The notes below the pieces were generated by a model. The model did not search any database. It saw only the letters and a program-made list of their open reading frames with translations, and had not been told where the DNA came from. A program made the position numbers and the translations under genes. A stretch of 64,000 nucleotides of DNA from Colwellia sp. M166 (GTDB lineage: Bacteria; Pseudomonadota; Gammaproteobacteria; Enterobacterales; Alteromonadaceae), in NCBI RefSeq assembly GCF_024585285.1, contig NZ_CP040755.1, forward strand, positions 4,278,001 to 4,342,000. The letters are read 5' to 3'. Of this stretch, positions 41,877-48,437 are shown in pieces; the first letter of the stretch is position 1, and every line of letters starts with the position of its first letter.

Positions 41877-43775
41877 GTGACCCCTCAGTTTTATAATGAG
41901 AACGCCAAAGACCTTGCTAGACAATACCTTTCAAAATCATTTGAAGAGGTTCACCAAAGTTGGTCGCAGTTTTTACCTGCCATTTTTAAAAATTCCAATG
42001 CACGTATCTTAGACTTAGGCGCTGGTGCTGGCCGAGATGCTAAGTATTTTGCTGAGCTTGCTGAAAAAACACATAAAACCGCTAACAATATTCAAGTTTT
42101 TGCGGTTGAACCTGCCACTGAACTTGCCGAATTAGGCGCTAAAGTCACCAAAGACTTAAAAGTAAAATGGCTCAACGATGCGTTGCCATCATTAAGCGTT
42201 ATTACTAAACAAGAAGTTAGCTTTGACTTAATCTTGTTAAGTGCGGTGTGGATGCATATTTCGCAAAGTGCTCGTGCTCGTTCAATTCGTAAACTTGCCA
42301 ATTTATTAAAACCCGGCGGTAAAATAGTTATATCACTTCGCCACGGCCAGACCGACGACGACTTTAAACAGCGTAAAATGCATATCGTCTGTGCTGATGA
42401 GTTAAAACGTCTAGCGACTGATGTTGGCCTATTTACCAAGTTAGCAACAGCAAAAGAAACCGATAAACTCGGCAGAAACCACGTTTCTTGGCAAACCCTT
42501 GTGCTGCAAATGCCAGACGATGGCACAGGTGCATTCCCATTCATTCGCCATGTCGCGATTAATGATGGCAAGGCTGCAACTCATAAACTGGCGTTGTTAA
42601 GAGTATTACTGCGCATTGCCGATGGCCACCCCGGTGCAGTTTTGCGAAGAGAATCATCGCCATTTGGCGATCGCGTTATTTTACCTGCGGGTTTAGTCGC
42701 GCTTTATTGGTGTCATCAGTACAAAGACTTAATAGATAGCCATCAGTTATTTCAATCACCGAGTAAAAGCCCAAACATGGGTTTTATGAAAGCTGATGGC
42801 TGGCACAAATTAACCCATCGTAGTGCCTCAGATTATCGCATCGGTAATTTATTCACCGGTGAAGATGCCATTGCACTGCATAAAACCATTTCAGCAGCAG
42901 TCAGTAATATTAAAACCATGCCTTGTCGTTATATTACCTTTCCTAATCAAGAGGCTGGTAGCGGTGCAAAGGTATTTGATATTGCTAGTAAAACCGTTAA
43001 AGCCAAAGCCAGTATCTTTCTTGATTTGCAAACCCTTGAGCAATGGGGTGAGTTCTCATTACCTGAATCAACATGGCTAGCGTTTAATCGTTACGCCTGT
43101 TGGATTGAACCAGTTCTTGTGAGTGAGTGGGTTAAAACCATGGCGAGCTATTCGGGTAATGCTCAATATGCAACGTCTGAAAAGCAGTTTCATTTATACC
43201 AAGCACTGAATTGGTTAGAGCCTAAACGCACAACCACCGAAGTACGAAATCGTTTTGAACAGCTTAAACAGCAACTACCGAAAAGTGAGCAAATTCAGTG
43301 TGTGTGGTCAGCAAAATCGTTACAACAAAAATACGATATTGATCACAGCATGCCATTTGCCCGTTGGCCCAATAACGATTTATGGAATTTACTGCCAACC
43401 GATAGCCAAATTAACAATCAAAAAAGCGATCGCTTGCCGACAGAGCATAAATTAAAAGCCTCGAAAGAAAGAATTCAGCATTGGTGGCAAACAGCTTGGC
43501 TGAATGACAGTAATAACTTGTCTGTTTCAACGCAAAGTAATGAAGTGAATGAAGTGCCAGTGGGCTATAAAATAAGCACTAGATCTTTTATGCCTTCAAC
43601 AGCACTAGAACAAACAACAGCAAGTCTGCCCATACAAAGTAAACGCTTTTTTGCTGAAGCAAATATCGCCTTACCGGGCTTAAGTTCTAACAACGAATCA
43701 ATAGATGATTTGTTTGAGGCGCTGGTGATGCAGCGAGGCCGATTGAAAGAAATGCAGCAGTTGAGAGAGTGGTGA
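41877..43775 (+). CDS. SAM-dependent methyltransferase fused to a C-terminal HNH nuclease domain
   Basis: 632 aa from GTG 41877 (AGGA 7 bp upstream). The N-terminal class I methyltransferase has motif I ILDLGAGAGRDAKYFAE (about residues 44-60), VFAVEPATEL (motif II) and LLKPGGKIVISLRHG. A middle region of about 250 residues contains PFGDRVILPAGLVALYWCHQYK. Residues about 488-520 read IDHSMPFARWPNNDLWNLLP followed by N513 and K516, an HNH nuclease pattern (D489-H490, N504, N513). The target methylated or cut is unknown. It stands alone, next to a toxin-antitoxin operon, and may be a single-protein defence or modification system; this is inference. Confidence 0.85.
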   Translation: MTPQFYNENAKDLARQYLSKSFEEVHQSWSQFLPAIFKNSNARILDLGAGAGRDAKYFAELAEKTHKTANNIQVFAVEPATELAELGAKVTKDLKVKWLNDALPSLSVITKQEVSFDLILLSAVWMHISQSARARSIRKLANLLKPGGKIVISLRHGQTDDDFKQRKMHIVCADELKRLATDVGLFTKLATAKETDKLGRNHVSWQTLVLQMPDDGTGAFPFIRHVAINDGKAATHKLALLRVLLRIADGHPGAVLRRESSPFGDRVILPAGLVALYWCHQYKDLIDSHQLFQSPSKSPNMGFMKADGWHKLTHRSASDYRIGNLFTGEDAIALHKTISAAVSNIKTMPCRYITFPNQEAGSGAKVFDIASKTVKAKASIFLDLQTLEQWGEFSLPESTWLAFNRYACWIEPVLVSEWVKTMASYSGNAQYATSEKQFHLYQALNWLEPKRTTTEVRNRFEQLKQQLPKSEQIQCVWSAKSLQQKYDIDHSMPFARWPNNDLWNLLPTDSQINNQKSDRLPTEHKLKASKERIQHWWQTAWLNDSNNLSVSTQSNEVNEVPVGYKISTRSFMPSTALEQTTASLPIQSKRFFAEANIALPGLSSNNESIDDLFEALVMQRGRLKEMQQLREW

Positions 43776-43817
43776 GTTTTTAAATTTTATGCTAACCATT
43801 TGGTTGAAATTAATGAA

Positions 43818-43855
43818 TAACCCTGAAAGTAGTTTACCACTAACTTTCAGGGTTA
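43818..43855. terminator. Bidirectional hairpin between the methyltransferase-HNH and SecB-like genes
   Basis: A 13-bp perfect stem (TAACCCTGAAAGT and complement) around 12 nt in a short convergent gap. Confidence 0.6.
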
Positions 43856-43862
43856 ACTGTTA

Positions 43863-44270
43863 TTACTGGTGGGGTAATTGAATCGCTTTAAAAGTAGTAT
43901 CAGCTAAAAACCGATTGACAACACTGTGTAAAAATACACCAGCATCTTTCTTAAAAAGCCATTCAGCCTCTTGAGACTGAGACGGGAGTTTGTTTATATC
44001 AAACACGCCAGAGTACTTCATAGAAAACTCAATATGAAGATTCATTACTTTGCTTTCTATCTTTGGTGAAGGCGTTTCCTCTCCTTCAAATGCAGTAACA
44101 GTACCCGTGTAGAGCATTAGTAAACGATCTTTACTAGCTTCTATCTCTTCTTTTCGTACAAGAATTATTTTTAAGAATCCTGAAGTGGATGCTTTTTTGT
44201 TTGAAGATAAATCTTCGTATTTAAAGCTTGTAATATCAGCCGACTGCAACCTTAATTTAGTGAGATCCAT
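43863..44270 (-). CDS. SecB-like chaperone, third gene of the hicAB operon
   Basis: 135 aa from ATG 44270, which has GAGGAGG 6 bp upstream inside the end of hicB. The upstream TTG start at 44318 has no such site. The pattern resembles SecB: LHIEFSMKYSGVFDI (residues 78-92) parallels the SecB strand ending G-I-F-x-I, and LFKKDAGVFLHSVVNRF, then FKAIQLP, parallels the SecB C-terminal helix LFPYAREAISDLVTRG.FPPLNL. It is shorter than housekeeping SecB (about 155). Located after a toxin-antitoxin pair, it is most likely the chaperone of a toxin-antitoxin-chaperone (TAC) system. The assignment is by eye and needs structural comparison. Confidence 0.65.
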   Translation of the reverse strand: MDLTKLRLQSADITSFKYEDLSSNKKASTSGFLKIILVRKEEIEASKDRLLMLYTGTVTAFEGEETPSPKIESKVMNLHIEFSMKYSGVFDINKLPSQSQEAEWLFKKDAGVFLHSVVNRFLADTTFKAIQLPHQ

Positions 44271-44727
44271 GCGAAACCTCCTCGCTTGCGGTCCAAGCAG
44301 TGGATGGTGACAATTCAAAAGGCTGTGTGGTTACGCTTTTATTATCTACATTTTGAACATTTACATTAACATGGTTGTGTATTTCAGTTGCTGAATTAAC
44401 GTATTGCTCTACCGATTTCTTTATCACTTCATTCAAAGTAACACTATCTAACTTGGCACGAACCAAGGCTTTTTTGTGCAGTTCTTCACCAATTCTAATA
44501 TTAAAAGAACCTGTCATCGTCTTATCTGGATCTTTACCAACTTCTTTGCAAAATTCTAGATAATCTTCTATTTCTGATTTGAAAGTAACTTTAAGCTCTG
44601 CAACTGTATCTGCTCCAAATACGATACTGTCATTGATAAACTCTACCTTACCAAATACACATTCATCTTCTACCGATACATTTATAGAGGCATAATAACC
44701 TTTGTATTCAAGTAGCTTACTTTTCAT
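44257..44727 (-). CDS. hicB: HicB-family antitoxin with ribbon-helix-helix domain and extended C-terminal tail
   Basis: 156 aa. Residues 1-65 form the HicB partial RNase-H-like fold (LEYKGYYASINVSVEDECVFGKVEF, then ADTVAELKVTFKSEIEDYLEFCKEVG). Residues 71-110 form a ribbon-helix-helix DNA-binding domain (GSFNIRIGEELHKKALVRAK, then LNEVIKKSVEQYV). Beyond it lies a 46-residue tail, absent from ordinary HicB, with hydrophobic points (TTQPFELSPSTAWTASEEV). The tail may be a chaperone-addiction segment recognised by the SecB-like partner. It overlaps hicA by 11 bp and the next gene by 14 bp. Confidence 0.88.
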   Translation of the reverse strand: MKSKLLEYKGYYASINVSVEDECVFGKVEFINDSIVFGADTVAELKVTFKSEIEDYLEFCKEVGKDPDKTMTGSFNIRIGEELHKKALVRAKLDSVTLNEVIKKSVEQYVNSATEIHNHVNVNVQNVDNKSVTTQPFELSPSTAWTASEEVSHGSH

Positions 44728-44971
44728 CTTTTTGTTCCTTGATTAACACAATCGCCTCGTCGACGACATATTGTAAAACTTCGTTTCCCGGATGTGGTTC
44801 ATGCCATTTTGCAACCTGACCAGTTGTTGGATTGTAGAAGTTCCTACCTGAACCACGTTTAGCGTTCTTCATAATGAAGCCTAAATCTTTCATTACTACC
44901 ACTAAATCTTTCCATTTGAATTTAGCTGGTCGGTTGAGTAATGCTTGTTTGAGTTTTTCCTTTCTGCTCAT
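44717..44971 (-). CDS. hicA: HicA-family toxin (double-stranded RNA-binding-fold mRNA interferase)
   Basis: 84 aa. HicA toxins cut mRNA. The pattern is a short N-terminal helix, WKDLVVVMKDLGFIMKNAKRGSGRNFYNP, then KWHEPHPGNEVLQYVVDEAIVLI, which matches the HicA H.PHP....Y.V...I signature. The usual catalytic His of the GSHxxF motif is not present (GSGRNF here), as in a subgroup of the family I recall, so activity should be tested. It is first in the operon, upstream of hicB. Confidence 0.88.
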   Translation of the reverse strand: MSRKEKLKQALLNRPAKFKWKDLVVVMKDLGFIMKNAKRGSGRNFYNPTTGQVAKWHEPHPGNEVLQYVVDEAIVLIKEQKDEK

Positions 44972-44998
44972 TTCAGATTATAGTCCATATTTTGGATG

Positions 44999-45030
44999 TG
45001 CAACTATATATTAGTTGCAATGTGTGTCAA
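44999..45030 (-). promoter_or_regulatory. hicA promoter with overlapping palindromic operator
   Basis: Minus strand: -35 TTGACA (45025-45030), 16-bp spacer, -10 TATAGT (45003-45008). TGCAACTA and TAGTTGCA, 5 bp apart (44999-45019), form a perfect inverted repeat over the -10, as expected for autorepression by the ribbon-helix-helix antitoxin. The rest of 45031-45224 shows nothing clear. Confidence 0.7.
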
Positions 45031-45224
45031 GCTGTATTTATGTACAGAATATTGTAAATTATGCCAATTTACTAGAATACAATAGTACTTTTTGAAAATA
45101 ATAATCAAGTCCATTTAATTAACTAAAAATATTTAACTTTATAGTCAAATAACTATTGATTATGCTTTTCTAGTGTAAGGAAGGTATCTAGCAACTCCAT
45201 GACTAGAGACTTTATTATGCACTC

Positions 45225-48200
45225 TTAACCTATCGCCAACTTAGCCGTCTCATGCCACAAATATGCTGGCATGGGATGTTTAAGTTTCCAAGTAATATTC
45301 ATCGGTTGACTACCTTCATATTTGACAAAATCAACCGGGCCAAAGTTTACAAAGCCCATGGTTTTTCCATTTTCGTCTTTGGCTTGCTCGCGAACAAATA
45401 AAATGAATGTTTTGTTGTTTTCTTTTTGCTTGATATAGCCTAAACCTCGACCAGATTCTGGCTTAGCACTATTTTGTGTTTGCCAATGAAATAGCGTTGG
45501 GCTCATGGCATAGTCATGGTACATGGTGGTTGCTGAAAACTGATTTTCGTTCTTATTCAAAGTAACAAACAATAATTCTGTATTAGCGTCAGCTATGTTT
45601 AAAACACCTTCGCGGCTTGATGACTTTCTTGAAAAAACACTCTCACCAAAAGCGACAAAAATATGCTCTTTTGGATGGCGGACATGCATTTTTAGCGGTG
45701 ATGTATCTACCATTGGGTTGCCAACTTTTGGCATAGCAAATTCACTTACTTCTAGTTGTTCAATCAGTATATCGATTACTTCGCTGAGTTCTTTTTGAAG
45801 GCTTTTATCTCTGAGAGCTTTAATACTTTCTTCAAGGCGGTTAAAGCCAGCTTGTTTACCCGCTTTGTCCCAAAAGTCGTAATGACACATCAGGGTAAAT
45901 AAATGCTCAGAGTTTACTGTATCGCCTGTAAAGTTAGTTAATGGCAACGCAAAGTTGTTATCACAAAGGGCTTTAATAAAGCGTAAATAAGATATTGAAG
46001 TGCAGATCATTAATCGGTTGTTGATAGCGCGATAGTAAGCCGCATAAAGCGCCTGTTTACTTTCATCTATGGCTTTATTTTTACTTATCGCTATTAGGGC
46101 TTGCCAACCGCCAAACTTTCCAACTTTAACTTTGTAGATATCTTCTAAGGTAATATTAGGGTTGATATGTAAGAAGTTTTTTAATGTTAAAGGTAAATGA
46201 GTAACATGAGGGAAATTAATAATTAAGTTAATTAATCGGCTTTTATTCAGTGTTGCTTGGCTGATGTTTTTTAAGATCATGGTTTGAGTTTTTTCTTGTA
46301 ACTCAATACGACAACCCAAAGGCAAATGAGGAAAGCCTTGTTTAACTTCTTTTGCTATTGCTTGATTGGTTTTGCCAACTAATGCTCTAAACTTATGTGA
46401 AAAGTCGTATTCTGGTCGCGAATTGCCGACAAAATCTAATATTGTGCAACATTCTTTGTTATCGGTTAAACGCAGCCCGCGACCTAGTTGTTGTAAGAAT
46501 ATCGTCAAGCTTTCTGTTGGGCGTAAAAACAGTAAAGTATCAAGCTCTGGAATATCGACACCTTCATTAAAGATATCGACCACAAACAGTACGTTTATTT
46601 GCTTTGATTTTAAGCGTTGCTGCATGATTTCACGATCTTTACTGTTATCGCTGGTTAGCACGCCACAAGCTATATTTTTCAGAGTAAATTTTTTCGCCAT
46701 AAAATTTGCGTGTTCTTTACTGACACAAAATGCCAGCGCGCGCATTTGAGCGATATCAGTAACAATTTCATCAAGACTTTGTAGTATTCGTAAAACACGT
46801 TGGTCGTTATAAGTATAAAGGTTGGTTAATTCAGCAATGTCATAACGGCCTTTAGACCATTTTATTTTGCTCAGATCGGTATCGTCATCGATAGCAAAGT
46901 ATTGAAAGGGTGAAAGGTGGCGTTGGTTAATCGCTTCAGGTAAGCGTATTTCAGCGGCAATTACATGGCAAAAATCACTAAGAATATCTGTACCATCGTG
47001 ACGCTCGGGTGTCGCGGTTAATCCTAATAGTATTTTCGGGCTAAAGTGTTTTAATATTTCGCGGTAGCTTTTGGCTGCAATATGATGAACTTCGTCGATA
47101 ACAATATAATCAAAGTAATCTTCACTTAACGCTAAAGTGTCAATTGGGTTGCTCATTTGTGAATTTAAGCTTTGAATAGAAGCGAAAAGGTGGTGATATT
47201 TGCTTGGTTTGTTATTGCCGACCCATAATTCGCCAAAACTACTATTTTTTAATACGCCACGATATGCGCCTTGTGCCTGCTTTAAAATTTCTTCTCTATG
47301 GGCAATAAATAAGAACTTAGCTTCAGGGTTTTTATCGTAAAAACGAGCAAAGTCGAAAGCTGAAATAATGGTTTTACCTGTACCTGTAGCGGCAACCACT
47401 AAGTTGCGATAACGATTATGTAAATTACGCTCAACCTGTAGTTTTTCTAATATAGTTAGTTGGTGAGAATGAGGTTTTATATCGAAATAAAAGCTCGGCG
47501 CTGCATTGTTAAAACTGCCTTTTGCTGCTTGCAGGGCGTCATGGAGCTTTTCTTTACTCTCTGCTTTGCCATCAAAGTGTTCAAAGTCAGGTGACTGCCA
47601 ATAGGTTTCAAAGGTACTGAGCGACTTTTCAATAATATGGGGGATTTCTTGTGAGGTGATTTTTAAATTCCATTCTAAACCACTGGTTAATGCTGAATGT
47701 GATAAATTAGAAGAGCCAATATAGCCAGTATGAAAGCCTGTGTTTCGCTTAAATAAATAAGACTTCGCGTGTAATCTTTCACGGTTAGTGTTGTAGCTGA
47801 GCTTTACTTCGGTGTTTGGTAGAGAGGCTAAGAACTCAACGGCTTTGGCATCGGTCGCGCCCATGTAAGACGTGGTGATTATTTTTAGCTGTTTGCCACT
47901 ACGGGTAAATGCTTCTAACTCGTTTTTAAATATTCGAATACCAGCCCACTTGATAAAAGACACTAACCAATAAATTTTATCAGATGATTGGATCTCTCTT
48001 TTGATCTCAGTCTCTAGCGAGATACCAACATTACTGCCACAAAATAATTCACTTTGGCTAAGCCCAGTAATCGGCATTATTGATTCAACGTACTTGGGTA
48101 AGTCTGCTGCAATAGGATTGGATTTATCAAATAGTGCGGTAAGAATTTTACCTTGGCTGTCTAACAGGTTTTCACTGATCAGTGCTTCATCGCGAATATG

Positions 48201-48437
48201 CTGACTAAGCCATTGCACGATAGTATTGGCGAGTTTTATTTGCTGATGGATTCTACTATCGCCGTTGGGTACCGAGTCCATGGCAATTTCAATAATTCGC
48301 GTTAAAAATCGTGATAATAGCGTTGCGGCTTCACCAGCTTCTAATGTGCGCTCGCCAACATAAAAGGCATCACGATCTAAATTTTGCTCAACCAACTGTG
48401 TAATGAGTTGTTCATAAATACCCGTTTGAGACATCAA
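45225..48437 (-). CDS. PLD-domain / SF2 helicase / DUF3427 protein
   Basis: 1070 aa. An N-terminal helical region is followed by a phospholipase-D-type nuclease domain with HAK at 223-225 and GSSNLSHSAL. The SF2 helicase has VVAATGTGKTIISAF (Walker A, about 349-357), VIDEVHHIAAKSY (DEVH), LLGLTATPERHDGTD and QQLGRGLRLTDNK (motif VI). The C-terminal region, with FVAFGESVFSRKSSSREGVLN, ATTMYHDYAMSPTLFHWQTQN and LGYIKQKENNKTFILFVREQ, is DUF3427. Proteins with this layout are widespread in accessory DNA and are suspected in phage defence or restriction. It lies next to the hicAB-SecB-like operon. Confidence 0.9.
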   Translation of the reverse strand: MMSQTGIYEQLITQLVEQNLDRDAFYVGERTLEAGEAATLLSRFLTRIIEIAMDSVPNGDSRIHQQIKLANTIVQWLSQHIRDEALISENLLDSQGKILTALFDKSNPIAADLPKYVESIMPITGLSQSELFCGSNVGISLETEIKREIQSSDKIYWLVSFIKWAGIRIFKNELEAFTRSGKQLKIITTSYMGATDAKAVEFLASLPNTEVKLSYNTNRERLHAKSYLFKRNTGFHTGYIGSSNLSHSALTSGLEWNLKITSQEIPHIIEKSLSTFETYWQSPDFEHFDGKAESKEKLHDALQAAKGSFNNAAPSFYFDIKPHSHQLTILEKLQVERNLHNRYRNLVVAATGTGKTIISAFDFARFYDKNPEAKFLFIAHREEILKQAQGAYRGVLKNSSFGELWVGNNKPSKYHHLFASIQSLNSQMSNPIDTLALSEDYFDYIVIDEVHHIAAKSYREILKHFSPKILLGLTATPERHDGTDILSDFCHVIAAEIRLPEAINQRHLSPFQYFAIDDDTDLSKIKWSKGRYDIAELTNLYTYNDQRVLRILQSLDEIVTDIAQMRALAFCVSKEHANFMAKKFTLKNIACGVLTSDNSKDREIMQQRLKSKQINVLFVVDIFNEGVDIPELDTLLFLRPTESLTIFLQQLGRGLRLTDNKECCTILDFVGNSRPEYDFSHKFRALVGKTNQAIAKEVKQGFPHLPLGCRIELQEKTQTMILKNISQATLNKSRLINLIINFPHVTHLPLTLKNFLHINPNITLEDIYKVKVGKFGGWQALIAISKNKAIDESKQALYAAYYRAINNRLMICTSISYLRFIKALCDNNFALPLTNFTGDTVNSEHLFTLMCHYDFWDKAGKQAGFNRLEESIKALRDKSLQKELSEVIDILIEQLEVSEFAMPKVGNPMVDTSPLKMHVRHPKEHIFVAFGESVFSRKSSSREGVLNIADANTELLFVTLNKNENQFSATTMYHDYAMSPTLFHWQTQNSAKPESGRGLGYIKQKENNKTFILFVREQAKDENGKTMGFVNFGPVDFVKYEGSQPMNITWKLKHPMPAYLWHETAKLAIG

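Follow-up and report, generated by a model that had tools for sequence, protein, structure and literature searches.

The minus strand of a 64,000-nucleotide stretch of the Colwellia sp. M166 genome (contig NZ_CP040755.1; the whole stretch is called the window below) carries three genes, hicA, hicB and a small third gene, which very probably form a toxin-antitoxin-chaperone (TAC) module of the HicAB type. This was first proposed from the sequence alone (the sequence-only reading), and it is supported by the predicted SecB fold of the third protein and by the co-occurrence, in distant relatives, of a C-terminal tail on HicB with the third gene. In the list of open reading frames (ORFs) the three genes overlap one another and span 43863-44971 in the order hicA, hicB, third gene, with 11 nt common to the frames of hicA and hicB and 14 nt to those of hicB and the third gene. 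The ORFs agree with the overlapping operon described previously (84, 156 and 135 amino acids), and the strong ribosome-binding site that the third gene was said to have within hicB is present (GAGGAGG, 6 nt before its ATG at 44270).

Structure prediction, on which the sequence-only reading had staked its SecB claim, gave a SecB fold with good confidence. The AlphaFold2 (AF2) model of the third protein had a pLDDT of 85.5, compared with only 36.7 for single-sequence AF2, and Foldseek and VIA searches with the model matched SecB, the best structural match being a dedicated TAC chaperone (5mtw). Folds missing from the VIA list were given no evidential weight. At the level of sequence the link to SecB profiles was marginal. 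A hidden Markov model (HMM) of 24 relatives gave an E-value of 6.1e-5 over the full length, and over that length the protein is homologous to the third genes of phage mEp234 and its kin, ie it is of the HicC type. The short motifs in which SecB kinship had been seen (VFDI, and LFKKDAGV...QLP) are no evidence in themselves; that part of the earlier argument is dropped, and the predicted fold carries the assignment. The protein matched no family in Pfam or NCBIfam at E ≤ 1, the SecB profiles (PF02556 and NCBIfam SecB) included, and it is classed here by its predicted SecB fold and kept out of the Pfam SecB family. The SecB-like partner that a TAC has in its operon is thus present by predicted fold and marginally by sequence. 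For comparison, the Pfam SecB profile matched 251 of 274 genomes scanned, and 30 loci fetched from the listed matches were used as ordinary SecBs for a profile.

HicB was recognised by PF05534 (E 6.6e-15, residues 56-103) and by phrog_9151, 'HicB-like antitoxin' (E 3e-40, residues 4-119). The 46-residue tail claimed for it is present past position 110; its length is 37-46 residues according to the choice of core end, and 38 of 69 distinct HicBs have no such extension. A Trp lies within the last 25 residues of 25/29 tailed HicBs (W145 of STAW in the window) and of 18/36 short ones. The Trp count alone was judged weak evidence, since short HicBs also carry Trp, there inside the core by our own reading. 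In the chaperone-addiction (ChAD) segment of Mycobacterium tuberculosis, W108 is described as a main anchor (PMC6377645), and the parallel with the HicB-tail Trp is suggestive only. The C-terminal G-x-x-H pattern found in many tails was set aside as a binding motif: it coincides with the third gene's ribosome site and may only reflect a constraint on the coding sequence. Two loci have an identical third gene, and in one of them, on an Escherichia coli chromosome (L086, compared with L110), the hicB tail is frameshifted, a natural loss of the tail.

The association of tail and third gene was examined in 83 loci, drawn from several searches, the window, and 15 hand-fetched plasmid and phage matches (11 plasmid records, out of 1098 in which HicB matched and 40 that were listed, and 4 of 13 phage records). 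Loci with the same HicB length and the same last 30 residues were merged, leaving 69 distinct HicBs, and a tail was defined as at least 25 residues beyond position 110. Tail and recognised third gene were found together in 29 of these, neither in 38, and the tail only in two (L063/L140 and L146). A recognised third gene thus accompanies 29/31 tailed HicBs; these systems come from Proteobacteria, Firmicutes and Deinococcota, and their frames overlap or adjoin. The set is not random, one search having used an alignment of tailed HicBs. Some positives also match by construction because the detecting HMMs contain them: 26 sequences, the window and L154 among them, went into the HicC-type HMM, and the Firmicutes-type and SecB-type detectors include the third genes of L066, L144, L145 and L081. 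In an order-wide HicB search (394 genomes) all 27 loci besides that of the window were short-tailed and had no recognised third gene.

The promoter and operator described earlier as autoregulatory-looking fared unequally. Both sequences are present upstream of hicA, and the palindrome recurs in relatives; promoter-like sites number two in the window, against a mean of 5.8 in shuffled sequence, so their count is not above chance. The palindrome (TGCAACT-N7-AGTTGCA) with at most one mismatch is expected 0.05 times per 64 kb. As the motif was derived from the window, its presence there is no test, and the test lies in its recurrence. With at most two mismatches it was found 5' of 24/27 tailed systems (14 exact) and of 2/38 short ones; 4/31 tailed systems, with less than 150 nt of DNA on that side, were left out of the count. 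Mononucleotide shuffles reached that level in 2/1350 and 1/1900 cases. The three tailed systems in which it was missing are L081, L131 and L063, the last of which has an exact copy nearer hicB than the scanned stretch. Carriers include Eubacterium and the mutually similar viral contigs L144 and L145, and on this distribution the operator seems to have moved together with HicB between phyla.

Several of these loci deserve separate mention. Behind a tailed HicB with the same operator, L066, L144 and L145 have a Firmicutes-type third gene (142-143 amino acids), which in L066 was unmatched by Pfam SecB. Two Deinococcus plasmid loci (L081, L151) have hicA, a SecB-like third gene and an unannotated tailed hicB, whose tail was measured in L081 alone; on the D. 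radiodurans plasmid a McrB family gene is the next one annotated. The viral-contig locus L063/L140 has its exact operator close 5' of HicB, no recognised hicA and, by our own reading, a transposase-like ORF downstream; it is possibly a remnant. In L146, also a viral contig, a HicB of 169 amino acids has the same operator, but the place of the SecB-like gene is taken by a different ORF of 95 amino acids, which may encode a third partner of another kind.

HicAB, HigBA and MqsRA TACs have already been published. Among the systems closest to the operon in the window is the HicAB-SecB TAC of Methylomonas methanica MC09 (Mmet-TAC; Bordes et al. 2016, PMC5105189), which is reported to be functional and to have a transferable ChAD; addiction, and its transfer by the tail, have been established by experiment for this and other TACs. 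Both operons have a HicA, a HicB with a C-terminal extension (amino acids 119-159 were used as the Mmet ChAD) and a SecB-like gene. Mmet-SecB is described as 53% identical to the TAC chaperone of Vibrio cholerae and homologous to SecB (PMC5105189), whereas the protein in the window, compared with it by description, escapes SecB profiles. Escherichia phages mEp506 and mEp234 (PV340542, PV340539; NC_019715) have HicA-HicB-HicC with the same gene order and operator palindrome, a tailed HicB 43% identical to that of the window, and a homologous third gene that is 15-17% identical. PV340542 carries the note 'HicC chaperone', a function given by the depositor's label only. The phage operon lies beside the cI repressor of a lambdoid phage, that of the window in a bacterial defence-gene neighbourhood. 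HigBA1-SecB-TA of M. tuberculosis (Rv1955-1957), the source of the top structural match 5mtw, has other toxin and antitoxin families (PMC6377645). The anti-phage system CmdTAC likewise has a SecB-like chaperone that stabilises an antitoxin whose C-terminal region is long, but its toxin is an ADP-ribosyltransferase where that of the window is a HicA, and capsid protein is an established trigger in CmdTAC (PMC11618068). What is new here is a further HicAB TAC whose chaperone branch escapes the family databases tried, together with a common operator.

The third protein might have a SecB fold and yet act as a co-repressor or second neutralising subunit, on HicA or DNA, the tail being an interaction arm and not a destabilising element. 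Streptococcus proteins of unknown function have this fold too, and a regulatory role is conceivable given how closely the operator tracks the tailed class. This is nevertheless unlikely, as the nearest structure is a dedicated TAC chaperone and the architecture and tail are those of the experimentally established M. methanica TAC (PMC5105189).

HicA scored 26.2 bits against PF07927, slightly below the gathering score of 27, and was clear in PHROGs (phrog_8887, 'toxin', E 4.7e-21). PHROGs, Pfam and the overlapping frames together place a type II toxin and its antitoxin in one operon. The Gly-Ser-His loop, the His of which is essential in Burkholderia pseudomallei HicA (PMC3969222), is absent; its equivalent, judged by eye, is G40-S41-G42-R43. 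None of the HicA-like partners compared has Gly-Ser-His (L146 has GSSH), and its absence is therefore a trait of this HicA subclass, in which the histidines of H-x-P-H-P may be used in place of the loop His.

The module is rare. Used directly as a query, the third gene recovered its own copy only (Pfam, NCBIfam, PADLOC, PDB, plasmids, phages, viral contigs, genome contigs, 98 relatives and 394 genomes of the order), and the first lead came from PHROGs (phrog_19522, E 1.7e-4), a profile that, in 369 genomes belonging to the class, matched the window alone. A search with the Eubacterium plasmid's third gene recovered just that gene among plasmids and nothing among viral contigs. The module was present in 2/147 genomes of the family and 2/315 of the order, both counts including its own; the other match in the order is weak (E 7.8e-4, within a 780-amino-acid open frame). 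A terminator-like hairpin with a T run lies within the third gene (43980-43963, minus strand), and the window has two such sites, against a shuffle mean of 0.7. The rarity, this site and a HicA lacking the canonical His could all be expected of a degenerate or inactive remnant. We consider that improbable, because none of the three frames is broken, the ribosome site is intact, hicA is preceded by promoter and operator sequences, and the missing Gly-Ser-His is a feature of the subclass.

It is still harder to credit an ordinary two-gene HicAB with tail and downstream gene as functionally unlinked passengers; the HicBs that have neither are presumably functional, but the two go together in nearly all tailed systems across three phyla. 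Least credible is that the third gene represents a stray secB, the gene of the export chaperone, serving secretion in general, for, fold apart, a normal SecB is encoded elsewhere in the genome (PF02556, E 7.8e-58), the third gene has no SecB profile match, and its relatives recovered with HicB lie in hicAB operons.

The operon sits between two larger genes (coordinates of its own features are collected in Table 1). On one side a single protein of 632 amino acids has methyltransferase and HNH_4 domains (41877-43775), with a weak PADLOC match to mad2. On the other, directly upstream and on the same strand, is a gene for a PLD nuclease, helicase and DUF3427 protein (45225-48437), which in PADLOC scores as a methyl-directed restriction enzyme of type IV (E 1.7e-210). 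In a genome of the same genus (G008) these two are directly adjacent, and in another (G005) other ORFs come after the methyltransferase-HNH gene, and one of these is ATPase-like by our own reading. The site of the operon looks like an exchangeable slot within a defence-gene neighbourhood. The inverted repeat just beyond the third gene is possibly a terminator common to the converging genes; it was absent from the output of the terminator scan of the window.

Table 1. Positions in the window of the operon and associated sequences.
Feature	Position	Strand	Basis
hicA, toxin, 84 aa; G40-S41-G42-R43 and H57-E-P-H60-P motifs	44717..44971	-	PF07927, phrog_8887
hicB, antitoxin, 156 aa; HicB core and DNA-binding domain, then C-terminal tail	44257..44727	-	PF05534, phrog_9151
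HicB tail, residues 111-156, putative ChAD-like segment; W145 at 44293-44295	44260..44397	-	tail alignment, absence from short HicBs
Third gene, 'HicC'-type predicted SecB-fold protein, 135 aa, putative dedicated chaperone; ATG 44270	43863..44270	-	AF2, Foldseek, VIA, HMM
Ribosome-binding site of third gene, inside hicB	44277..44283	-	sequence context
Sigma-70-like promoter TTGACA-N16-TATAGT	45003..45030	-	consensus match 11/12, 5' of hicA
Operator-like palindrome (perfect), over promoter -10 box	44999..45019	.	kept 5' of tailed systems
13-bp perfect inverted repeat, just beyond third-gene stop	43818..43855	.	sequence
Extra DNA compared with G008	43791..45228	.	1438 bp here, 59 bp between aligned flanking blocks in G008

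By analogy with characterised systems, the TAC module would most likely work as follows. HicA would be an RNA-targeting growth inhibitor; HicB would bind and neutralise it, and would also repress the operon by way of the palindrome that covers the -10 box. The tail would prevent the folding or stability of HicB until the SecB-fold protein binds it, which would make HicB addicted to its chaperone. Loss of the chaperone, or its engagement by other proteins such as structural proteins of a phage or unfolded export clients, would be the trigger: HicB would be degraded, HicA would act and the operon would be derepressed.

A wider proposal is advanced tentatively and is rather doubtful. HicABC operons may form a single coherent class of anti-phage systems that spreads horizontally. 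Its members would share a divergent SecB-fold chaperone of their own and an operator code (TGCAACT-N7-AGTTGCA) retained across Firmicutes, Proteobacteria and lambdoid phages. In this view the chaperone would be an infection sensor from which the structural proteins of an infecting phage displace the HicB tail, freeing HicA, and phages with the operon next to cI would thereby shut out competitors.

HicAB-type TACs are probably undercounted, because the annotation of the plasmid and E. coli records fetched here labels the third gene 'hypothetical protein', and the words SecB and chaperone occur nowhere in the text of a 2024 survey of HicA contexts or a 2024 review of HicAB. Neither 'HicC' together with HicA and HicB, nor HicB together with either operator half, was found in the literature searched, outside which most subscription journals lie. 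Tail, third gene and operator together provide a sequence signature for finding HicAB TACs in phages and bacteria. It would allow chaperone-controlled release, as in CmdTAC with its capsid trigger, to be tested as a general means of phage sensing by toxin-antitoxin systems. If the chaperone-tail pair works, it would also be a further portable stability switch, like those grafted onto unrelated proteins by Bordes et al. (PMC5105189).
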